Shown here piece by piece: positions 39,584-49,747 of a DNA stretch of 50,625 nucleotides (positions are counted from its first letter, which is position 1; each line of letters starts with the position of its first letter). The position numbers were made by a program, and so were the translations under genes. Origin of the DNA: an uncultured cyanobacterium (lineage in GTDB: Bacteria; Cyanobacteriota; Cyanobacteriia; PCC-6307; Cyanobiaceae); assembly GCA_903935205.1 (NCBI GenBank), contig CAIZQU010000116.1, positions 1-50,625 on the forward strand, read 5' to 3'. The notes under the pieces are model-generated. The model had not been told where the DNA came from, did no database searches, and saw nothing but the letters and a program-made list of their open reading frames with translations.

Positions 39584-40975
39584 ATGGGCACAGGGCGACG
39601 GCTGGGGCAGCAACTGGCGGAATGGCTAGCCACCGGCACCGCCGGTCTGGATAACGGCCTGGCGCTGGGGAATCGGCTCTGCGATCTGCTCGGTGCCGAC
39701 CAGGCCCTGGCGGGCCCGTTGCGGGATCTGGCCCGGCGACCATTGCTGCGCCAGGCGATGCAAAGTCAGGGCATGGCGCGACGCAGTGCCCTGCGGGCCC
39801 TGGTCAGCGATCTGGAGAGCACCTATGCGCCGCGGGTGCTTGCGGAATTGGTGGACCTGCTGGAGGCCGCCCTCGGCGAGGCCGGGCTTCACGATGCCGG
39901 CTTCGGAATGGGTGATCGCCGGGAGCAGGAAGCGAAACCGACGGTGCTGCGGGCCAGCCCGGGAGGCGGCGACGACGGCTGGATCGTCGCTGGCGGTGGG
40001 GCCACACCCCAACCCAGCCCGCCGCCCAGCTGGATTCCGGACGGGGCTCCGGGGCCTGGGCCGTCGAACGGTGGAACGGCGGCCGGATCATCGCCGCCGC
40101 TGGCGACGGGGGTGGGGGTGGGGGTGGGGCGAGATCCGCTGGCACCCCAGGCGGCCAGCGGCGGCGGCGCCCCCATCCCCCCAGCAACCCGGCGACGGCA
40201 TCTCCAGCGCAGCGCCACACGGCTGCTCCGCTCCCTCGGGCACCGGTTGCGCCCGCTCGCTGCCGGTCTGGCCCTTGCCGCCGCCATGGCGCTGGTGTTG
40301 TCCTGGCTGGCGGGAGTGCTGGATCAGCTCGTGTTCGAGCCCTGGCAGTGGAGCGGCGGCCAGGCCCTGGTGCTGGTGCTGGTGCTGCCCCAGCTGCTCA
40401 CCATCGGCCCGTTCGCCAAGGCCCGCCAGGCCGCTGTCCTGAGCCAGGAGCAAAGCGGTGAGATCGGCCAGGCCTGGCGCTGGGTGACGGCCCCCTGGAT
40501 CCACGACCGCCACAGCGAGGCGATCCTGCACGGCCTGGTGCTGTTGCTGATCCTCGGCCCCTCTCCCCTTCCGCTCGAGGACGGCGTGTTGCGCTATGCC
40601 CTGACCGCCCTGGCGACGATGGCCCTGGCCTGCCTGAGCGCGGGCACCCTGGGGTTGAGGGGGCAGCGCTGGGCCGGGGCCTCCGGGGTCAGCGGAGCCC
40701 TGATCGGTCTGGCGGCCTGCCACAGCCTGCTGCGTTGGCGGGAGATCAGCTTTGCGCTCGGCAGCCAGGCGGTGCCGGCCTGGGTGCTGCTGGTGGTGGT
40801 GGGTTGCCTGCAGCTGGTCTGGATCCTGCCGCGGCGGGGGCAGGAGGCGGGCGGCCGGGGCCGCGACCGGCTGTTGAGCTCCCAGTGGTTCTGGGGTCTG
40901 ACCCTGGGGATCGCCTGGGGCGTTCTGAGCTGGCTGGTGAGCCTGCTGCCCAGCGGCGGTGGTGCGGCGGGCTGA
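39584..40975 (+). CDS. Multi-span membrane protein, rhomboid-like, probably without protease activity
   Basis: The N-terminal 210 residues are soluble, with a helical start and a Gly/Pro/Ser-rich linker. They are followed by about seven membrane segments, including LALAAAMALVLSWLAGVL, ILHGLVLLLILG and AWVLLVVVGCLQLVWIL. Two parts resemble rhomboid proteases: WIHDRHSEAILHG, like the loop with conserved His before the second segment, and WAGASGVSGALIGLAA, like the catalytic GxSG segment. No His follows in the expected later segment, so the catalytic pair seems incomplete. Rhomboid relatedness is an inference. Its stop and that of the convergent PBP gene share the palindrome TGATCA. Confidence 0.6.
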   Translation: MGTGRRLGQQLAEWLATGTAGLDNGLALGNRLCDLLGADQALAGPLRDLARRPLLRQAMQSQGMARRSALRALVSDLESTYAPRVLAELVDLLEAALGEAGLHDAGFGMGDRREQEAKPTVLRASPGGGDDGWIVAGGGATPQPSPPPSWIPDGAPGPGPSNGGTAAGSSPPLATGVGVGVGRDPLAPQAASGGGAPIPPATRRRHLQRSATRLLRSLGHRLRPLAAGLALAAAMALVLSWLAGVLDQLVFEPWQWSGGQALVLVLVLPQLLTIGPFAKARQAAVLSQEQSGEIGQAWRWVTAPWIHDRHSEAILHGLVLLLILGPSPLPLEDGVLRYALTALATMALACLSAGTLGLRGQRWAGASGVSGALIGLAACHSLLRWREISFALGSQAVPAWVLLVVVGCLQLVWILPRRGQEAGGRGRDRLLSSQWFWGLTLGIAWGVLSWLVSLLPSGGGAAG

Positions 40976-43339
40976 TCAGCCCAGGGCGGCCCCCATGAAC
41001 CGCGCCCAGACCTCGGTGGCCAGCACACTGGTGGCCGCCTCGGCGGGACGGTTGTCGTCATTGCCCATCCAGATGGCGGTGAGGATGCCGGCAGCGGGGG
41101 AATAACCGACGAACAGCACATCGACTCCATCGTTGGTGGTGCCGGTCTTGCCGCGGGCATCGGTGATCCTTGCCGCCGCCCGGCCGGTACCCTCGCTGAC
41201 CACCAACCGCAGCAGGCCATCCATGCGAGCGGCGACGGCCGGATCGAGCAGCTGCCGCGGCGTTTCGCCCACCGGATCGCTGATCGCCTGGGAGGGGCAG
41301 TCGGCCCCATCAGCGCCACCAGGACAGAGCCCCAGGTCGATGATCCGCCGCACCCCGTGCATCGGCACGGAGCGTCCCCCGTTGGCCACCACCGCATAGG
41401 CCCGCGCCAATTCATAGAGGTAGGTGGCATCGCCGCCGAGCACCATGTTGTGATCGGGGCGCAGCGCTGTGCTGATGCCCAGCCGCCGGGCCTGGGCGAT
41501 CACCGTATCGAGACCGACCCGGTCGGCCAGGCGCAAGGCCACCACGTTCTCGGACCTGGCGAAGCCGCTGGCGACACTGGTGCTGCCATCGGCTCCGACC
41601 GGGCCGTGGCCGCAGCCGGCCACCGGCCCGAGCGGGGCGCAGGAGATCCGTTCGCCGGGTTCGATGCCGCGGGCCAGGGCGGCGAGGAAGGTGAACAGCT
41701 TGAAGGTGGAGCCGGGTTGGCGCAGGGCCTGGACCCGGTCATAGGCGCTGCGGCCGTAATCGCGCCCACCCACGTAGGCCAGGATGTCGCCGCTGCGTAG
41801 ATCGAGACTGATCAACGCCGCCTGGCTGACGCCGAGGGGTTCAGCCTGGCGATCGATGAAGCGGCGCAGCTCTGTTTCGGCCAGCTGCTGCAGGCGGGGA
41901 TTGATGGTGCTGATCACGGCGTAATTGCCGCCACCGCGCTCGGGGTCGAGGTTGAGGCCGAAGCGGCGGCCCTGCAGTTCGCCGCGCACGTAATCGGCGA
42001 AGAAGGGGTGGCTGCGGTAGGCGGACACGCCACCACAGGCGGAGGGATCGATGTTGAGGGGACGTCGCTGGGCGTCGCGCAGGGCGTCCTGGCCGATGTA
42101 ACCCTCCTCATGCATGCGCCGCAGGACAAGATTGCGGCGCTGCACCGGCGCCCAGTTGTCGAGGGCACCATCCGACGGCTGGGGGGCCAGGCAGGGGCTG
42201 TAGCCATTGGGACTGGGCAGCAGCCCCACCAGGAAGGCGGATTCGGCCAGGTCGAGCTGGCGAGCCGACTTACGGAAATAGAGCTGGGCGGCCTGCTCGA
42301 AGCCCTCGCTGCCCAGGCCGAGGGGGGCCCGGTCGAGGTACATCTTCAGGATCCGGTTCTTGCTGAAGGCTGTCTCCAGCTGCCAGGCCACCCAGAGTTC
42401 GCGCAACTTGCGCTCGACGCTCACGGCATGACCCACCGCCGGGTCATAGAGACGGGCCACCTGCTGGGTCAGACCGCTGCCGCCGCCCGACCCCTGGATC
42501 AGGGCCCGCAACGTGCCGAACAGATCGAGGCCGCTGTTCCAGCCGAAGCGGGCATCCTCCGAAGCCAGGAGCGCCTGCTGCAGGGTCTGGGGGTAATCGG
42601 CGAGGCTGGGCAGGGCCGTGGCGGCCCCCTCGCCCGCATCGATGCGGCGAAAATCGGCCGCCAGGATCTTGAGGGGCCCGCCGTAGAAGCGGATCGTCGA
42701 GCCCCCCGCCACGCTGCTCACCAGCAGCAGACCGCTGACCAGAACGCCGGAACCCACCAGAGCGATCAGGCCGAGGCCATGGATCGCCCCCTCCATGGGG
42801 CTGCGGGGATGGCTGTAGCGCAGGCTTGGGGTGGCAGGGCCCTTCAGGGGGGAGCCCAGCAGCACCCTGTCGCCATGGCGCAGGCCGATGGCGCGGATGC
42901 GGCGATCGCGCCAGAACAGGCCGTTGGTGGCGTGGAAGTCCTCGAGGCGATGGTTGCGGCCTTGCGGGTGCTCCCGCTCCAGCACCGCATGGATCCGACT
43001 GACGCCGGGCGCCTCGACCCGCAACTCGCAGAGGGGATCGCGGCCGATCCGCAGACGCTCGTCACCGAGGGGCAGGCGGCCGGTGCAGACATCACCGCTC
43101 CAGAGCTCCAAGGCGGCCTGGCAACGGGTCAGACCGGCCCAGGCCTCAACCAGGGCCTGGCGGCGGCGGGGCCAGGGTGCCGGGTTGCGCAGGGCCTGCA
43201 CCAGGGCCGCCCAGGGGGCCAGCGCTGCGGCCAGGCTGCCAGGGCCGATGGGGCCGGACAGGCTGGTGGGTCCGGGTGTTGGGTGTCTGCCGGTGGCAGC
43301 CGGGTCCGGGGACAGCGGCGGAGAAGGCTGTGGCCCCAT
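40976..43339 (-). CDS. Class A penicillin-binding protein with N-terminal FHA domain
   Basis: Bifunctional peptidoglycan synthase. Domain order in 787 residues: Pro-rich start; cytoplasmic FHA domain at about 90-165 (RIGRDPLCELRVEAPGVSRIH, with Gly99-Arg100, Ser114, His117 and Asn139); membrane segment 187-209; glycosyltransferase GT51 from about 245 (catalytic Glu261 in SEDARFGWNSGLD, GSGLTQQVARLYD); transpeptidase with Ser544 and Lys547 in PGSTFK, SEN at 596-598 and KTG at 731-733. In GT51 the usual His of EDxxFxxHxG is Asn268. FHA domains read phosphothreonine, so docking to a phosphorylated partner is expected. The gene is divergent from the FHA/kinase/vWA/PP2C run with 28 bp between starts. 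Confidence 0.93.
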   Translation of the reverse strand: MGPQPSPPLSPDPAATGRHPTPGPTSLSGPIGPGSLAAALAPWAALVQALRNPAPWPRRRQALVEAWAGLTRCQAALELWSGDVCTGRLPLGDERLRIGRDPLCELRVEAPGVSRIHAVLEREHPQGRNHRLEDFHATNGLFWRDRRIRAIGLRHGDRVLLGSPLKGPATPSLRYSHPRSPMEGAIHGLGLIALVGSGVLVSGLLLVSSVAGGSTIRFYGGPLKILAADFRRIDAGEGAATALPSLADYPQTLQQALLASEDARFGWNSGLDLFGTLRALIQGSGGGSGLTQQVARLYDPAVGHAVSVERKLRELWVAWQLETAFSKNRILKMYLDRAPLGLGSEGFEQAAQLYFRKSARQLDLAESAFLVGLLPSPNGYSPCLAPQPSDGALDNWAPVQRRNLVLRRMHEEGYIGQDALRDAQRRPLNIDPSACGGVSAYRSHPFFADYVRGELQGRRFGLNLDPERGGGNYAVISTINPRLQQLAETELRRFIDRQAEPLGVSQAALISLDLRSGDILAYVGGRDYGRSAYDRVQALRQPGSTFKLFTFLAALARGIEPGERISCAPLGPVAGCGHGPVGADGSTSVASGFARSENVVALRLADRVGLDTVIAQARRLGISTALRPDHNMVLGGDATYLYELARAYAVVANGGRSVPMHGVRRIIDLGLCPGGADGADCPSQAISDPVGETPRQLLDPAVAARMDGLLRLVVSEGTGRAAARITDARGKTGTTNDGVDVLFVGYSPAAGILTAIWMGNDDNRPAEAATSVLATEVWARFMGAALG

Positions 43340-43367
43340 AGGCTACCGGGGTGAGCAGTTCGCAGCA

Positions 43368-43691
43368 GTGCAGCGACCGCGGGATCCCTGGGCCCCCTTT
43401 CGAATCGGGATCGCCCTGAGCATCGGTCTTTATGCCCTGCGTGCCGCCCTGGTGACCACCCCGCTGGGGGCGATCCCGGGCTATGTGCTGCTGCTGCTGG
43501 TGCTGGGGGCCCTGGCCCTGGCCCTGGGAGCCCTGCTCTGGCCGGGGCGGGTGGTGTTCTGGCGCGAGACAGCGCCGGGCCCGGAGGCCCTGGGGCCCGG
43601 CAGCGGCGGCCGTGGCCGGCGTGGCGGCGGGATCGGCAGCGCTGGCCCGGGCGGCGGCCGGGTCGGTGGCAGCGGCCGGGGCCAGGGATGA
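43368..43691 (+). CDS. Small membrane protein at the head of the FHA-kinase cluster
   Basis: I do not recognise the family. From the GTG at 43368 it has 107 residues, beginning VQRPRDPWAPFRIGIALSIG. Two membrane segments are visible: IALSIGLYALRAALV and GYVLLLLVLGALALALGALL. A Gly/Arg-rich tail follows (GRGRRGGGIGSAGPGGGRVG). The stop overlaps the next gene's ATG (ATGA), so it is coupled to the FHA protein. The start codon lies only 28 bp from the divergent PBP start. Confidence 0.6.
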   Translation: MQRPRDPWAPFRIGIALSIGLYALRAALVTTPLGAIPGYVLLLLVLGALALALGALLWPGRVVFWRETAPGPEALGPGSGGRGRRGGGIGSAGPGGGRVGGSGRGQG

Positions 43692-44521
43692 GCGAGGCAG
43701 CCTCCCTGGTGCGACTGGGCCTGGCGGACCAGCCGATCCGCCTCGATCCCCAGCGGCCGCTGACGATCGGCCGCGACCCCAGCTGCGGCCTGGCCCTTCC
43801 CGGGGAGCGGGGGCTGTCGCGGCGCCATGCCGAACTGCGGCGCCAGGCGGACGGCTCCTGGCTGCTGTGCGACCTGGGCAGCAGCAACGGCACCTGGATC
43901 GGAGAGGAGCGGTTGGAGGGCTGCCGCCCCCTGCGGGAGGGGGATCTGATCCGGCTGGGTCGCCAGGGCCCGGCCCTGGTGTTCCGGGCCGCAATGGCGT
44001 CGCCGGGACCGGCCCCCGACCATCCATCGCCGACCCGCTCTCAGGCCGCCACCCCAGCGGCTGCGGTGGCCAGGCCGAGCCCCCCCAGCCCCAGGCGCAC
44101 CCCGGCGGCGGTCCCGATGGATGCCGAGCCAGCCGTCCCATCGGGATCGCTCCGGCCGGCAGGCCGCGGCGGGCCGGTCGCCAGCCCCAGCGGCACGATC
44201 ACGGTGGCGGGGCGGCCGGTGCCCCTCGACCAGATCGAGGAGGTCAGCCTGCGGCGCCAGGCCCGCCATCCCCACAGCTTCAGCTGGTGGGTGCTGGTCT
44301 GCCTGAGCGGCCTGCTGCTGCTGCCCTTCCGGGTGGCGTTCGTGGTGGTGGAGGTGGCCGCCCTGGTGCTCTGGCTGGGGCCCGGCAGCCGCCAGGATCA
44401 TCTGCTCAGCCTCACCCTGCGGGATGGCCTGGCCCTGCGGCATCGTTTCCAGGACCGGGCCACCGCCGAAGCCCATCTGCAGGGCATCCGCCGGGCCCTG
44501 GGCTGGAGCGAGGCGCCATGA
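43688..44521 (+). CDS. FHA-domain membrane protein
   Basis: Phosphothreonine-reading adaptor. The N-terminal FHA domain (about residues 4-100) has TIGRDPSCGLALPG, SRRHAEL and DLGSSNGTWIG, all the binding-site residues. A Pro/Ala/Ser-rich linker follows (about 100-165). Two closely spaced membrane segments come next (FSWWVLVCLSGLLLLPFRVA and VVVEVAALVLWLG), then a short soluble tail (LTLRDGLALRHRFQ). The product is 277 residues. It is coupled to the preceding small membrane gene by ATGA and stands 92 bp before the kinase gene. Confidence 0.92.
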   Translation: MSEAASLVRLGLADQPIRLDPQRPLTIGRDPSCGLALPGERGLSRRHAELRRQADGSWLLCDLGSSNGTWIGEERLEGCRPLREGDLIRLGRQGPALVFRAAMASPGPAPDHPSPTRSQAATPAAAVARPSPPSPRRTPAAVPMDAEPAVPSGSLRPAGRGGPVASPSGTITVAGRPVPLDQIEEVSLRRQARHPHSFSWWVLVCLSGLLLLPFRVAFVVVEVAALVLWLGPGSRQDHLLSLTLRDGLALRHRFQDRATAEAHLQGIRRALGWSEAP

Positions 44522-44613
44522 GTTCCGCCAAGGTCGGTCCAGGGCCCGGCGGGGTGACGGCCGCGGTCGGGCCCAGGCCCCGCCGCACAGCCTGAGCGGA
44601 GGGGTCCACGGCG

Positions 44614-45984
44614 ATGCGCTGGCTGCTCAGCCCCGGTTCCACCCATCGGTTCGCGGATCTGCCCGAACCGGTCACGATCCTGCGGGGCCTGGGGGGCGGC
44701 AGCCAGGGACAGGTGTTCGCCGTGCGCCTGGGGGGGGAGGAGCTGGCCCTGAAGTGGTATTTGCCCGGCTTCCTGGCCCGGGACCGGGGGCTGGAGGGTC
44801 GACTGCAGGAGAGCATTCGCCGCGGCTCCCCCGGCGCCGCCTTCCTCTGGCCCCTCGCTCTGCTGCGCCCAGAAGCGCCGCTGGCGGGGGTCGGCCGTTC
44901 CGCTGGCACGGGCGGTGCTGATGGGCGGGGCCAGGGGCTCAGCACCGCTGGCTGGGGCTATCTGATGCCGCTGCGCCCCCCCAGCTACCGCGGGGCAGTG
45001 GATCACGCCGCCGGACGGCTGACGATCAGCCTGGCCAACGTGCTGCGCTGCGCCTTTCAGCTGGCCAGCGGCTTCCACGACCTCCACAGCCTGGGCCTCT
45101 GTTACAAGGATGTCTCTCTCGGCAATGTGTTCCTCGATCCGGAGCGGGGCCGGATTCTGATCGGCGATAACGACAACGTGGCGGTGAGCGGCGACGGCAG
45201 CGGAGCCGTGATCGGCACCTGGGGATTCATGGCGCCGGAGGTGGCGCTGGGCCAGGCCCGACCCAGCGCCAGCTCGGATCTGTTCGCCCTGGCGGCGCTG
45301 CTGTTCCAGCTGCTCACCCGCCATGACCCGTTCAAGGGGGCCCTGGAGCTGGCGATCCCCTGCCTCGACCTTCCCCATCGGCGCCGGCTCTATGCCGAGG
45401 ATCCGGTCTTCATCTTCGATCCGCGCGACGGGCGCAACCGACCCGATCCGATCGAGCACGGGGCGGCGCTGCTCACCTGGCCGATCTACCCCCGGACCCT
45501 GCAGCAGCTGTTCGAGCGGACCTTCGGACCCGGCCTGCGCGATCCGGTCCAGCGCACCCTCACCGGCGAATGGCGCCAGGTCCTGGCGGCCTGTCTCGAC
45601 CAGCGGCGCCTCTGCCCAGCCTGCGGCGAGGAGAACTTCGTGGAACCGCGGGCCAGCGGGCTCTGCTGGGCCTGCGCCGCCCCCCTGCCGCCGCCACCGC
45701 GGCTGCTGGCCCCGGCCGGGGTGGTGAGCGTGGCCGCCGGCAACGAGCTGCACCGCCACCATCTCGATCCCCTGGCGGCGGAGGCGATCGACCAACCCTT
45801 GGCGCGGGTGGAGGCCCACCCCAACCGGCCGGCTCTGCTGGGGCTGCGCAATCTCTCCACCCATCCCTGGACCCTGACCCTGGCCGGGGGTGAGACGATC
45901 ACGGTGGCCCCTGGCGAGACCGCTGGCCTCGCCCGCAGCCGCGAGCTTCGCTCGGCGGCCGGGCAGATCCGGATCGAGCCCTGA
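44614..45984 (+). CDS. Ser/Thr protein kinase-like protein with zinc ribbon (TerY-P type)
   Basis: Soluble kinase-fold protein. The glycine loop GLGGGSQGQVFAV is near residue 25, and the ATP-binding lysine is in LALKWY (about residue 47). The catalytic loop is YKDVSLGNVFLD with Asp166, instead of the usual HRDxxxxN. The metal-binding Asp is in LIGDNDNVAVS (DND rather than DFG), and MAPEV is the APE motif. A zinc ribbon follows at about residues 334-354 (CPAC, CWAC). The last 90 residues form a beta-rich tail. Asp, Lys and Asn needed for catalysis are kept, so activity is plausible. Its start has a GGAGG ribosome-binding site. With the vWA and PP2C genes it makes the triad described as TerY-P. 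Confidence 0.85.
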   Translation: MRWLLSPGSTHRFADLPEPVTILRGLGGGSQGQVFAVRLGGEELALKWYLPGFLARDRGLEGRLQESIRRGSPGAAFLWPLALLRPEAPLAGVGRSAGTGGADGRGQGLSTAGWGYLMPLRPPSYRGAVDHAAGRLTISLANVLRCAFQLASGFHDLHSLGLCYKDVSLGNVFLDPERGRILIGDNDNVAVSGDGSGAVIGTWGFMAPEVALGQARPSASSDLFALAALLFQLLTRHDPFKGALELAIPCLDLPHRRRLYAEDPVFIFDPRDGRNRPDPIEHGAALLTWPIYPRTLQQLFERTFGPGLRDPVQRTLTGEWRQVLAACLDQRRLCPACGEENFVEPRASGLCWACAAPLPPPPRLLAPAGVVSVAAGNELHRHHLDPLAAEAIDQPLARVEAHPNRPALLGLRNLSTHPWTLTLAGGETITVAPGETAGLARSRELRSAAGQIRIEP

Positions 45985-46102
45985 GGCCGTTCCAGGAGCC
46001 GGGCCGGCATCCGGCCAGGGCGGCGGCCAGACCGGGCGCCAGGCACCCGATCCTGACGCTCCGGCCGCCAGGCCCGCCAGGCCCGCCACCAACCGACTCC
46101 CC

Positions 46103-46138
46103 CCAGCTCCCGCTCCCCAGCTCCCGCTCCCCAGCTCC
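46103..46138. repeat. 14-bp tandem repeat between kinase and vWA genes
   Basis: Two and a half copies of CCAGCTCCCGCTCC in the 190-bp gap between the kinase stop and the vWA start. The composition is C-rich with no frame of note. Confidence 0.85.
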
Positions 46139-46173
46139 ACCCCGCCACGCACCGGCTTCCCCCGGCACTTTCG

Positions 46174-46953
46174 ATGGCCTTCCCCAATGTCCGCCTGGCC
46201 AGCAGGCCACTGCACTTCATCTACCTCTGCGACTGCTCCGGGTCGATGGAGGCCCAGGGCAAGATCCAGTCGTTGAACCAGGCGATTCGCCAGTCGCTGC
46301 CCGATATGGCCGCCGTGGCCAGGGAGAACCCGGAGGCGCGCCTGCTGGTGCGCGCCCTGCGCTTCGCCGACCGCGCCGCCTGGCACATCCAGCATCCGAC
46401 CCCGGTGGAGGAGCTGCACTGGCTGGATCTGCAGGCCGGCGGGGTGACGGCCATGGGCGAGGCCCTGGAGCTGCTGGCGGCGGAACTGCGCAGTCCGCCG
46501 ATGGAACAGCGAGCCCTGCCGCCGGTGCTGGTGCTGATCTCCGATGGCCAGCCCACCGATTGCTTCGACGCGGGGCTGGCGACCCTGATGGCCGAACCCT
46601 GGGCCCGGCGGGCGGTGCGATTGGCGATCGCGATGGGCCACGACGCCGACGAGGAGGTGCTGCAGCGCTTCATCGGTCCAGGCCCCTCCCTGCCGCCGGG
46701 AGAGGTGCCGGGGGCGAGCGGCGAGATGCCACGCCATGGACCTGGCGCCTCCCCCCGCCGGCCGCTGCGGGCCAACAACGCCACCACCCTGGCCCGTTAC
46801 ATCCAGTGGGCTTCGACGGCGGTGGTCGGAGCCGCCTCGAGCAGCGCCAGCCGGATCAGCGGCGCCGCCACCGACCAGGGCAACGTGCCGCTGCCGGAGC
46901 TGCCGCCGACGGAACTCGATCCGCTCGACGATCCCGACCCGCTCAAGTGGTGA
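46174..46953 (+). CDS. von Willebrand A domain protein, TerY-like
   Basis: Metal-binding interaction protein. The MIDAS residues are present: DCSGSM (Asp20, Ser22, Ser24), the Thr in GGVTAMGEAL (about residue 92) and Asp125 in LISDGQPTD. The vWA fold fills residues 10-185, followed by a Pro/Gly-rich stretch and a short tail (PELPPTELDPLDDPD). Total 259 residues, no signal or membrane segment. It is in the same run as the kinase and PP2C genes (7 bp before the latter), the classical TerY-P order of vWA, phosphatase and kinase proteins. Likely a scaffold or substrate of the kinase; that is inference. Confidence 0.93.
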   Translation: MAFPNVRLASRPLHFIYLCDCSGSMEAQGKIQSLNQAIRQSLPDMAAVARENPEARLLVRALRFADRAAWHIQHPTPVEELHWLDLQAGGVTAMGEALELLAAELRSPPMEQRALPPVLVLISDGQPTDCFDAGLATLMAEPWARRAVRLAIAMGHDADEEVLQRFIGPGPSLPPGEVPGASGEMPRHGPGASPRRPLRANNATTLARYIQWASTAVVGAASSSASRISGAATDQGNVPLPELPPTELDPLDDPDPLKW

Positions 46954-46960
46954 GGGGGCA

Positions 46961-49141
46961 ATGCTGAACAGCTGGTCGCCACCGCTGGTGCACAGCAGCG
47001 CCGGAGCCTCCCATCGGCGCCGGGGCCAGCCCTGCCAGGATGCCTCCCTGATGGCCGAGCTGGCCGGGGCCGATGGCACGGCCCTCACCCTGATGGCCGT
47101 CGCCGATGGCCATGGAGCGCCGGCCTATCGCCACAGCGCCGTAGGGAGTGCGGCCGCCTGCCAGGCGGCCGGGGAGGCGGTGGCCGAGGCCCTGGCCCAG
47201 CCCGGTGGGAACTGGCGGCAGCCCGATCCCGACACCCTGGAGCGCTGGCTGGCCCGGGAGCTGCCGGAGGTGATCCGGCGGCGCTGGCTGGCAGCGATCG
47301 GGCGGCACTGGGAGGCTCAGGCAGAGGGGAAGACGGCGCCACCGTTCCAGCCGCGGCCCTACGGCACCACCCTGGGGCTGGTGCTGGTGACAGCGGGCTG
47401 GTGGGCCTGCACCGGCCTGGGGGACTGGGATCTGGTGCTGATCGATGCGGATGGCGCCCGGCTGCTCAGCCAGGAGGAGGGGCTGGGCGGCGGCGGTGAA
47501 GCCACCGCCAGCCTGGCGGCCGGCGGCTGCGGCGACGGGAGCCGTGGTGGTGGTGATGCGCCGTTCCCCTTCCGCTGGCACTGGTTCGGGCTGGATCCGG
47601 ACGCCTCCCCCTTCGCCCTGGTGCTCAGCACCGACGGCATCCGCAAGTCGTGCGCCAGCGACGCCGATTTCCTGGCCCTGGCCAGCTGGCTGGCCACGGG
47701 CATGGCAGCCCCCGCCCTGGAAGACAGCCTGGAGCGGATCAGCCGCGAGGGCTGTGGCGACGATGTGAGTGTGGCGATCGTGCGCTGGGGAGCGATCGGC
47801 GCGGCATCGCAACCGCAACCGGGTGTTCAGGACCTGCAGGCGGCCCGGGGGCCGCAAGCCAGCGGTCTGGCCGGCGGCGACGCTGATCCGGCCCCGGGCG
47901 GCCGGATCAGCGCAGGTGATCGCCCCCAGGGGTCAGCGATGGCATCGGTGGCCGACCGCGGGACCCTGGCGGCCGGGGTGATGGAGGTTCCCATGGACGA
48001 TCGAGAGGCTCCGGGACCTCCAGGCGGTCGGGGTGGTCCGGGCCGTTCAACGAGCCCGGTCCAGCCGGGCGGCCGCTGGATGGTGGCGGGCCTGATGGGC
48101 CTGGCGGCCGTTGGTACTTCGATCGGCCTGCGGCTGCCCCAGCGGCTGGTGCCGGCCGGCGACCCCCTGGCCCAGGAGGTGGAGCGCCTCTGCGCCAGCC
48201 CGGGCCTGGCTGCGGCGGCCCTCGCCAGCCGCCGCAGCCAGTTCGAGGGACTGCGGCAGGGCCGGCTGCGCCGCGGCGACCTGCTGGCCCAGCAACAGCG
48301 GGACCCCCTCGGAGCCCTGATCGCCAGCACCTTCCCGACCCCGACCCCGAAAGCGAACCCGACAGCGACCGCACCCCCTACGGTGTCCCCATCAGCCGCC
48401 CTTCCCCTCGCCGCTCCATCAGCCGCTTCCGCTCCAGCGGCGGCGACGCCCCCCCCGAGCGCTCAAGCCTCCCCGGCAGCGACCGCGACCGGGGGCATGG
48501 CCAGGCTGGCGGCCCCGGGGCGGCCCTGCCCGGCCCTGAACCAGGCCCTCGACAGCCTCTGGGGCCGCAGCGGAGCAGTGCCAGCCCTCGACCAGGGTCT
48601 GGCCGTTGCCGACGACTCCAGCGGCGGGCCCCGGTCCCAGGCGCCCGCCCCGATGGCCTCCCCCCCAGGGAAGGGTCGGGCCGTGGCGGCGGCAGAGGGA
48701 GCGACAGCCCGCCAGGAGGCGGCGATCCGTACGGTCCTGGCGCTCTACGGCGCCCTGGCCCGCGGCGATGGTGCCAGTGCGCGGGCCTACCTGGGGGCCG
48801 GCGCCGCCGACCAGTTCGATTCCATCCTGTTCCGGCCGTTCGCGAGGGTGGAGCTGGAGGCTCTGAGGCCGATCGTGCGGGCGAGCGAGCAGCAGCCTGA
48901 GGCGAACGGGCAGAACCCGGAGGGTGCGAGCGTCGAGGGCAAACCCCTGGGCGGGGAGCAGCGGCCGGACCAGGAGGGCGGCACCGTGATCCTGGCGGGG
49001 GTGGTGCGGCTGGTGGACCGCGAGGGGCGGATCCAGCGGGAGAGACGCACCTTCCTGGTAGGGCAGGAGGGTGGCGTGATGCGCGTCACCGCCAGCGCCT
49101 TCGGAGCGGTGCTCGAAGCGGACGAACGACAACGGCCATGA
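46961..49141 (+). CDS. PP2C-family protein phosphatase with membrane anchor and C-terminal domain
   Basis: Metal-dependent Ser/Thr phosphatase expected to oppose the kinase. The phosphatase domain is in residues 1-290: RRRGQPCQDASL, metal-site VADGHG (Asp near residue 49), YGTTLGLVLV, LSTDGIRKSC and REGCGDDVSVAIVRW. A Pro/Gly linker leads to one membrane segment at about 372-390 (WMVAGLMGLAAVGTSIGL). The rest is probably periplasmic: a Pro/Thr/Ala-rich stretch (about 450-520) and a C-terminal domain from about 585 (IRTVLALYGALARGDGASA) that resembles NTF2/IMS-like folds by pattern only. The ATG has GAGGGGG just upstream. Total 726 residues, unusually long for TerY-P PP2C proteins. Confidence 0.9.
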   Translation: MLNSWSPPLVHSSAGASHRRRGQPCQDASLMAELAGADGTALTLMAVADGHGAPAYRHSAVGSAAACQAAGEAVAEALAQPGGNWRQPDPDTLERWLARELPEVIRRRWLAAIGRHWEAQAEGKTAPPFQPRPYGTTLGLVLVTAGWWACTGLGDWDLVLIDADGARLLSQEEGLGGGGEATASLAAGGCGDGSRGGGDAPFPFRWHWFGLDPDASPFALVLSTDGIRKSCASDADFLALASWLATGMAAPALEDSLERISREGCGDDVSVAIVRWGAIGAASQPQPGVQDLQAARGPQASGLAGGDADPAPGGRISAGDRPQGSAMASVADRGTLAAGVMEVPMDDREAPGPPGGRGGPGRSTSPVQPGGRWMVAGLMGLAAVGTSIGLRLPQRLVPAGDPLAQEVERLCASPGLAAAALASRRSQFEGLRQGRLRRGDLLAQQQRDPLGALIASTFPTPTPKANPTATAPPTVSPSAALPLAAPSAASAPAAATPPPSAQASPAATATGGMARLAAPGRPCPALNQALDSLWGRSGAVPALDQGLAVADDSSGGPRSQAPAPMASPPGKGRAVAAAEGATARQEAAIRTVLALYGALARGDGASARAYLGAGAADQFDSILFRPFARVELEALRPIVRASEQQPEANGQNPEGASVEGKPLGGEQRPDQEGGTVILAGVVRLVDREGRIQRERRTFLVGQEGGVMRVTASAFGAVLEADERQRP

Positions 49142-49204
49142 CCCGCAAGGGACCATGGCCGCGATGGCTGAAGTGGGGGCGGGCCCTCAGGCGGTCCCGC
49201 GGAA

Positions 49205-49747
<543 letters not shown>

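Follow-up and report, generated by a model that had tools for sequence, protein, structure and literature searches.

The stretch of DNA described here (the window) comprises 50,625 nucleotides of contig CAIZQU010000116.1 (C116 in our numbering) from the assembly GCA_903935205.1, which represents an uncultured cyanobacterium of the family Cyanobiaceae and amounts to 3.82 Mb in 169 contigs. It carries a block of genes in which a protein kinase, a vWA protein and a PP2C phosphatase (the triad) lie beside a class A penicillin-binding protein (PBP) with a cytoplasmic N-terminal FHA domain. From left to right, the block consists of a rhomboid-like membrane protein whose N-terminus forms a helical domain (HD) (39584..40975, plus strand; PF01694, E=4.1e-5), the FHA-PBP (40976..43339, minus), a small membrane protein of 107 aa read from GTG, with two likely transmembrane (TM) segments (43368..43691, plus), an FHA-TM protein whose start is overlapped by the stop of the small gene (43688..44521, plus; PF00498, E=4e-18; TM segment near residues 202–220), a Hanks-type kinase with a zinc ribbon and a C-terminal beta-rich domain (44614..45984, plus; PF00069 (Pkinase), E=1.9e-12), the vWA protein, which has a metal ion-dependent adhesion site (MIDAS) motif and a conserved C-terminal tail (46174..46953, plus; PF00092 (VWA), E=1.5e-5), and the PP2C phosphatase, with one weakly hydrophobic TM-like segment and a fused outer NTF2-like domain (46961..49141, plus; PF13672 (PP2C_2), E=2.6e-24). 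The layout proposed in a first-pass annotation made from the sequence alone (a plus-strand triad, preceded by the FHA membrane protein and the small membrane protein and divergent from the FHA-PBP) was borne out with Pfam, and every gene it named was present at the coordinates it gave. By labels assigned by eye, the block is preceded by atpC and a transaldolase-like gene and followed by a PSRP3/Ycf65-like gene. A scan of positions 43000–49300 for sigma-70 promoters and terminators gave no match.

The PBP has Pfam matches to FHA (PF00498, 5.9e-12; residues 97–162, 42854..43051, minus strand), Transgly (1.4e-41) and Transpeptidase (1.8e-22), with a TM segment at residues 189–207. Its start is uncertain: if translation begins at the ATG at 43339, 28 nt separate it from the small gene, and there are in-frame alternatives at 43201 and 43111. 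The active-site residues Glu261 and Ser544 were found in 62/62 orthologs and the KTG motif at 731–733 is also conserved; with both its transglycosylase and transpeptidase domains and these catalytic residues the protein qualifies as a class A PBP. In FHA domains the phosphothreonine pocket is made up of Gly-Arg, Ser-Arg-x-His and Asn-Gly residues, and the corresponding set (G99, R100, S114, R115, H117, N139 and G140) is present in all 62 orthologs, so that the domain appears competent to bind phosphothreonine, as the first-pass annotation had supposed.

The three triad proteins also look active by their residues. In the kinase, K47, D166, N171 and D185, together with C334, C337, C351 and C354, were invariant in 33/33 sequences, the spacing of the four cysteines was matched in 61 of 65, and T202 is invariant too; an AlphaFold2 model (mean predicted local distance difference test (pLDDT) score 91.6) gave kinase fold matches, with kinase entries in all 50 of the best Foldseek rows for the whole protein. 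The C-terminal beta-rich domain was considered as a hidden FHA domain, which hhalign against our own FHA set left unsupported (probability 0.34%); with Pfam, the domain of the window protein matched LapA below threshold (0.13) and those of three other kinases matched nothing. The DGHG motif of PP2C was present in 60/60 sequences, and two more of its motifs were matched by narrow patterns in 35 and 57 of these. For the vWA protein, the MIDAS motif DxSxS and Thr92 were each found in 63/63 sequences (a narrower pattern for the Thr motif matched 55/63), and comparison by sequence with solved structures gave one weak match. By eye, the 189 bases between the kinase and vWA genes (window 45985–46173) contain a short repeat, CAGCTCCCGCTCCC.

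Beyond a poorly conserved linker, the vWA protein ends in a tail of the form PPT-x-x-...-W, which in the window reads PPTELD (46903..46920, plus strand; Thr246, Asp249). Among 63 non-identical Cyanobiaceae loci, many of them close relatives (L134 was left out, and L109, L128 and L129 have no vWA in view), the Thr was kept in 63/63, Asp at +3 in 59/63 and Trp as the last residue in 63/63. T-x-x-D is a preference of FHA domains, and the tail is a candidate phospho-docking site. Threonine columns kept in at least 95% of sequences number nine in the PBP, all of them periplasmic (276 onward) and none in its cytoplasmic part; in PP2C they are 137 and 182, both within the catalytic match, in the FHA-TM protein 69 (in the FHA domain) and 259, and in the vWA protein 76, 92, 128, 204, 215 and 246. 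We take Thr204 and Thr215 to belong to the conserved folded stretch before the linker. Because of this pattern of conservation, Thr246 would be the best candidate for a shared phosphosite among these four proteins, the kinase having been left out of the comparison.

The association of PBP and triad was surveyed in 400 genomes of the family, using the window PBP as query (P0002, E<=1e-142) and the kinase at E<=1e-60. The PBP query matched in 70 genomes, one match (G578, 46% identity) being a paralog, which leaves 69 with a close PBP; the kinase was found in 72, and PBP and kinase together in 69. None of the 400 genomes had the PBP without the kinase. In the comparison of neighbourhoods that the first-pass annotation had suggested, the close PBP was thus always accompanied by the kinase (69/69), and 69 of the 70 PBP matches lay divergent from and adjacent to it, 957–2393 bp apart; the remaining one (G685) sits on a 5.1 kb contig whose end falls within the FHA-TM gene. 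Three genomes were scored by script as having the kinase only. In G578 a 3.4 kb contig carries a PBP fragment adjoining the FHA-TM protein and the kinase; in G473 (Prochlorococcus AG-412-I05, locus L124) the absence is weak evidence, since the genome is 74% complete and the 4.9 kb contig stops 0.56 kb before the kinase. This leaves G029 (Prochlorococcus MIT 0701, 99% complete; L119, the same place as L050) as one firm exception. Of the 59 named loci, 55 have the PBP beside the FHA-TM protein and the kinase. L102 and L124 are cut by a contig end, L124 having no FHA-TM match in its 0.56 kb before the kinase, and L119 and L134 have the triad and no PBP match in the stretch examined; L134 is from a Bryobacterales metagenome-assembled genome (MAG) and its kinase is 38% identical. 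L082 had no PP2C match at threshold, and L109, L128 and L129 end before the vWA gene. The gap occupied by the small membrane protein contained a hydrophobic open reading frame in 62/63 loci, and ten of these, inspected by eye, look similar. A record titled as a Bifidobacterium breve MAG (L108) carries the picocyanobacterial cassette and is most likely a mislabelled or contaminated bin. Overall, the triad is strongly linked to this PBP in particular.

Where the flanks are long enough, the block in most cases lies between atpC and PSRP3, and it is absent or displaced as a unit. In nine cassette-less genomes, hand-picked from the 328/400 without a kinase match, the site was empty in 9/9: atpC and PSRP3 were close together, with the transaldolase gene between them in six, and no rhomboid, PBP, FHA-TM, kinase, vWA or PP2C gene was found at the site. 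The rhomboid-like gene is present with the block at the usual site and missing when the block is missing there; it was not seen at relocated cassettes, bar a weak N-terminal match in L137. Seven loci (L116, L117, L120, L121, L122, L137 and L159) have the PBP, the FHA-TM protein and the triad together with no atpC or PSRP3 match in the stretch fetched; judged by length, L120 and L161 represent one contig. One genome, G261, has an empty usual site (L152) and the cassette elsewhere (L137); its five cassette proteins are 75–88% identical to those of L081, their closest relative in all five gene trees, but for atpC the identity to L081 is only 69% (64–73% to the others), so the cassette was apparently transferred as a unit. 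In the PBP tree L116/L117/L121/L122, L120 and L137 fall on different branches, which suggests at least three separate placements of the relocated cassettes. A tRNA was found near one of the seven (L159), ten loci having been scanned. Distance matrices of the cassette proteins agree across 58 loci (Mantel r 0.74–0.86; shuffle maximum 0.20), as plain co-descent would also make them.

The FHA-PBP architecture itself is widespread. When 145 genomes of the class were sampled and searched with P0002 at E<=1e-85, 122 gave a match and 23 did not; these matches are 37–45% identical (the close orthologs in G000, G005 and G009 excepted), mostly one per genome and mostly starting in the FHA region. In a midpoint-rooted tree of 69 FHA-PBPs, the cassette proteins (24), the housekeeping copies of Cyanobiaceae (20) and those of other families (25) formed separate groups with support of 1.0, 1.0 and 0.99, all 24/24 sampled cassette PBPs falling in their own clade. 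The class-wide matches and the three groups of the tree together indicate that the FHA-PBP fusion is old and general and that the cassette has a diverged paralog of its own. Class-wide proteins such as that at G000:C3:71184-73247 share the layout of FHA, transglycosylase and transpeptidase domains with the cassette PBP at 37–47% identity, but are unlinked to a triad (as at loci L162–L187) and belong to a separate clade. In the FHA domain, aligned only for the matches in the tree, residue 115 is Arg in all cassette PBPs, Arg or Lys in the Cyanobiaceae housekeeping copies and mostly Gln elsewhere, while the other FHA residues are kept.

The TerY-P triad was reportedly described by Anantharaman, Iyer and Aravind in 2012. 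As characterised in the relevant part of a later account, it consists of adjacent genes for a TerY-like vWA protein, a PP2C and a Ser/Thr kinase with a C-terminal zinc ribbon (PMC11090510). A vWA protein with MIDAS, a PP2C and a kinase of this type, encoded side by side, are present here, which supports the assignment made in the first-pass annotation; against the PADLOC TerY model the vWA protein gave a weak match (E=0.0037). That annotation had also seen no ter genes, and TerD (PF02342), the one ter family searched, is absent from the assembly of the window. The cassette differs from the triads of that account, as far as it describes them, in having no TerD, nuclease or restriction gene among its named genes, in its tie to an FHA-PBP, an FHA-TM protein, a small TM protein and HD/NTF2 membrane proteins, and in the PPT-x-x-D tail of its vWA protein (PMC11090510). 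The Escherichia coli genes YegI, PphC and YegL (L145) likewise form a cluster of kinase, PP2C and vWA genes, but YegL, inspected by eye, lacks the PPT-x-x-D tail and the terminal Trp, and the annotation of the 14 kb examined includes neither a PBP nor an FHA gene. The Mycobacterium tuberculosis protein Rv1747 is said to be an FHA-ABC transporter that works with the kinase PknF. Like TssL/Fha/PpkA, this system ties kinase signalling to the FHA domains of a membrane machine, although the kinases and effectors are others and the title and abstract concerned mention no vWA partner; TssL/Fha/PpkA provides a precedent, at the level of that abstract, for an FHA domain that reads a phosphothreonine made by a partner kinase (PMC3953482). 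Searches of the open-access literature returned no paper that ties a TerY-P triad to a PBP or describes the cassette, the vWA tail or the different FHA neighbours. Thus, the three triad components are known, and what is new with respect to the literature searched is their connection with a class A PBP, the vWA tail and the different FHA neighbours.

A possible input to the system is encoded at the other end of the block. The PP2C reading frame is listed from 46736; the ATG at 46961, picked by eye, is the likely start and gives 726 aa, of which the last part, the NTF2-like domain (48689..49138, plus strand), has no Pfam match of its own. A search of 66 other loci gave matches to it in 30. In 27 of these the reading frame was read, and 26 were separate genes, their products helical at the N-terminus and carrying a hydrophobic segment and an NTF2-like part (the reading frame of L078 has no start). 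The window domain is 33–43% identical to these 27 orthologous domains and is thus homologous to part of a separate HD-TM-NTF2 protein; in the window it is fused to PP2C with no helical part seen there. An AlphaFold2 model of the L114 homolog (mean pLDDT 79.5, predicted TM-score 0.37) has six helices, a TM helix and an NTF2-like domain, and its best PDB matches with Foldseek were read as NTF2-like folds (CaMKII hub, RsgI9 NTF2), only two having E<=0.001 (best 7.7e-4). At least one TM segment was predicted in 41/57 PP2Cs; in that of the window the weakly hydrophobic stretch is visible by eye and falls below threshold. Of the proposal that the outer domain of PP2C acts as a sensor, the domain itself stands, attached here and encoded alongside elsewhere in a receptor-like protein; that these domains sense something is our inference. 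By hhalign, the HD of the NTF2 proteins matched proteins of L050/L137 (E=6.9e-9, probability 95%), and gave lower probabilities with the rhomboid gene (E=3.3e-5, 46%) and with the f15/f24 proteins (5.3e-5, 39%); there was no match between the rhomboid and f15/f24 HDs, nor between those of f15/f24 and L050/L137. The HD of the rhomboid-like protein may share ancestry with the one in the HD-TM-NTF2 protein of orthologous cassettes, and the HD may tentatively be regarded as one wider family across cyanobacteria.

Taken together, we give a probability of about one half to the reading that the block is a single transmembrane phospho-signalling cassette whose output is its dedicated class A PBP, acting through phosphorylated Thr246 of the vWA protein. 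The outer NTF2-like domain, carried on PP2C here and on the HD-TM protein elsewhere, would sense the state of the envelope and shift the balance between the zinc-ribbon kinase and PP2C; the kinase would phosphorylate Thr246 in the PPT-x-x-D tail, the FHA domain of the PBP would read the phosphorylated tail, so that the PBP is recruited or switched in its activity or place, and PP2C would reset the tail. We infer each of these phosphorylation and binding steps, the direction of control, and hence phosphorylation control of the PBP, from the gene content, the strict linkage, the loss and movement of the block as a unit, and the conserved residues described above.

Several observations weigh against this reading. 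Position +3 of the tail is Gly in four vWA proteins (L116, L117, L121 and L122) despite an adjoining PBP, and the Prochlorococcus triad at L119 retains the tail without this PBP. The FHA-TM protein is probably not strictly competent for phosphothreonine: the binding residues are present in the window copy, but orthologs keep Arg29 in 53/64, Ser44 in 54/64, Arg45 in 28/64 and Asn67 in 29/64, and because the set is incomplete in so many of them, the role of phosphothreonine anchor proposed for this protein in the first-pass annotation is weakened. An FHA domain on a PBP would not by itself imply a triad, and since the class-wide FHA-PBPs with no linked triad keep the main FHA residues, another kinase may serve such domains. 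Membrane tethering may not extend to all PP2Cs, as 16/57, that of the window included, have no TM segment above threshold. Finally, linkage can persist through descent at a stable site, and descent alone could preserve the gene order at the fixed atpC–PSRP3 position. The first-pass annotation had named as counter-evidence PBPs of this kind routinely without the triad and triads routinely without the PBP; this pattern holds for the wider families (FHA-PBP in 122/145 genomes; loci L138–L144) and not for this lineage.

These wider triads allow a broader version of the same idea. Among 388 genomes of the class, kinase matches at E<=1e-30 were found in 16, and seven of the loci (L138–L144) are outside the family. 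L138, L140, L141 and L143 have both vWA and PP2C, L144 has the vWA protein only, L142 ends too early and L139 has neither in 12 kb; no PBP was found at any of the seven in the 8–18.5 kb fetched. FHA proteins lie near the kinase in L138, L141, L142 and L143, and counting the Prochlorococcus locus L050/L119 an FHA neighbour was found at 5/10 PBP-less loci. Our own FHA model found none in L124 (4.9 kb only), L134, L139, L140 or L144, and it is insensitive, since it missed the L141–L143 domains found by Pfam. At L138:6691-8196 the protein next to the triad combines an FHA domain with a PrsW-type intramembrane protease in one chain, and in Prochlorococcus MIT 0701 the vWA gene of L119 is about 5 kb from an FHA-FHA-ABC transporter, the surroundings (L050:3347-5704, L050:15663-16856) being island-like, with this transporter, trypsin-TPR genes and a tyrosine integrase near the triad. 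L139, L140, L141 and L143 encode a phosphonate-binding-type domain on a protein that may have an HD. The vWA protein is fused to a second Hanks-type kinase in another cyanobacterial family (L140:12113-13660, L141:5321-6898 and L143:5043-6662), and at L140:15539-17035 a further Hanks-type kinase gene lies directly downstream of the triad. By eye, the vWA tail of L138, from another family, has T-A-I-D, and those of L140, L141 and L143 have no clear counterpart. A plug-in architecture could be imagined in which receptor-like HD membrane proteins with exchangeable outer domains (NTF2-like or phosphonate-binding) feed the kinase and the phosphorylated vWA tail is a carrier read by exchangeable FHA effectors (the class A PBP, an ABC transporter, a PrsW-type protease), which would place picocyanobacterial peptidoglycan synthesis under direct phosphothreonine control. 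We regard this as a tentative and rather doubtful scheme, made less likely because an FHA neighbour was found at only half of the PBP-less loci.

As the main rival to control of wall synthesis, the block could be a mobile cassette of the TerY-P kind that defends against phage or stress, and the PBP and the rhomboid would then be its effectors, or bystanders, once the kinase is triggered. Stand-alone antiphage systems made up of TerY-P-like modules whose kinase has an OB fold are reported in the part of the account that treats them (PMC11090510). Patchy presence, relocation as a unit and the integrase near the L050 triad would suit such a role, as would the best PADLOC matches of the kinase, which are defence kinases (mad6, 4.2e-17; PD-T4-6, 8.8e-15). 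However, the block occupies one fixed site at most loci with enough flank, its kinase carries a zinc ribbon and both active sites of the PBP are kept; moreover, apart from the weak vWA-TerY match, the PBP, FHA-TM, PP2C and rhomboid proteins match nothing in PADLOC (the small TM protein was outside the scan). On balance we consider a defence function unlikely.

The kinase cassette might also act on the PBP without the vWA tail being the ligand: the FHA domain of the PBP would then read some other phosphothreonine, carried by the kinase, the FHA-TM protein, a divisome protein or the PBP itself. That all aligned FHA-PBPs keep the main residues, triad-linked or not, that the tail persists without the PBP in L119 and that Asp at +3 is missing in 4/63 tails would fit such a ligand, but the tail Thr is the only invariant threonine placed outside the folded parts of the four proteins checked (the kinase and the HD protein were not among these). 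We consider another ligand unlikely. That the genes are neighbours with no functional tie to the PBP, kept by descent and lost or moved by chance, is very unlikely: the flanking atpC and PSRP3 are conserved too and deletion of a block takes out linked genes together, but the block is retained at other sites in lineages that branch apart, the PBP occurs without the kinase in 0/400 genomes and it forms its own clade (24/24, support 1.0).

TerY-P triads have been proposed as phosphorylation switches, with no defined target in those parts of the literature that were covered. The phospho-signalling cassette proposed here offers one defined, membrane-bound enzymatic output together with a prediction at the level of a single residue, namely recognition of vWA Thr246 by the FHA domain that the PBP carries. 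If true, a soluble kinase paired with a vWA protein would directly control a cyanobacterial class A PBP through phosphorylation, and the same logic would make the class-wide cyanobacterial FHA-PBP testable. Wall growth in picocyanobacteria may thus be switched by protein phosphorylation.

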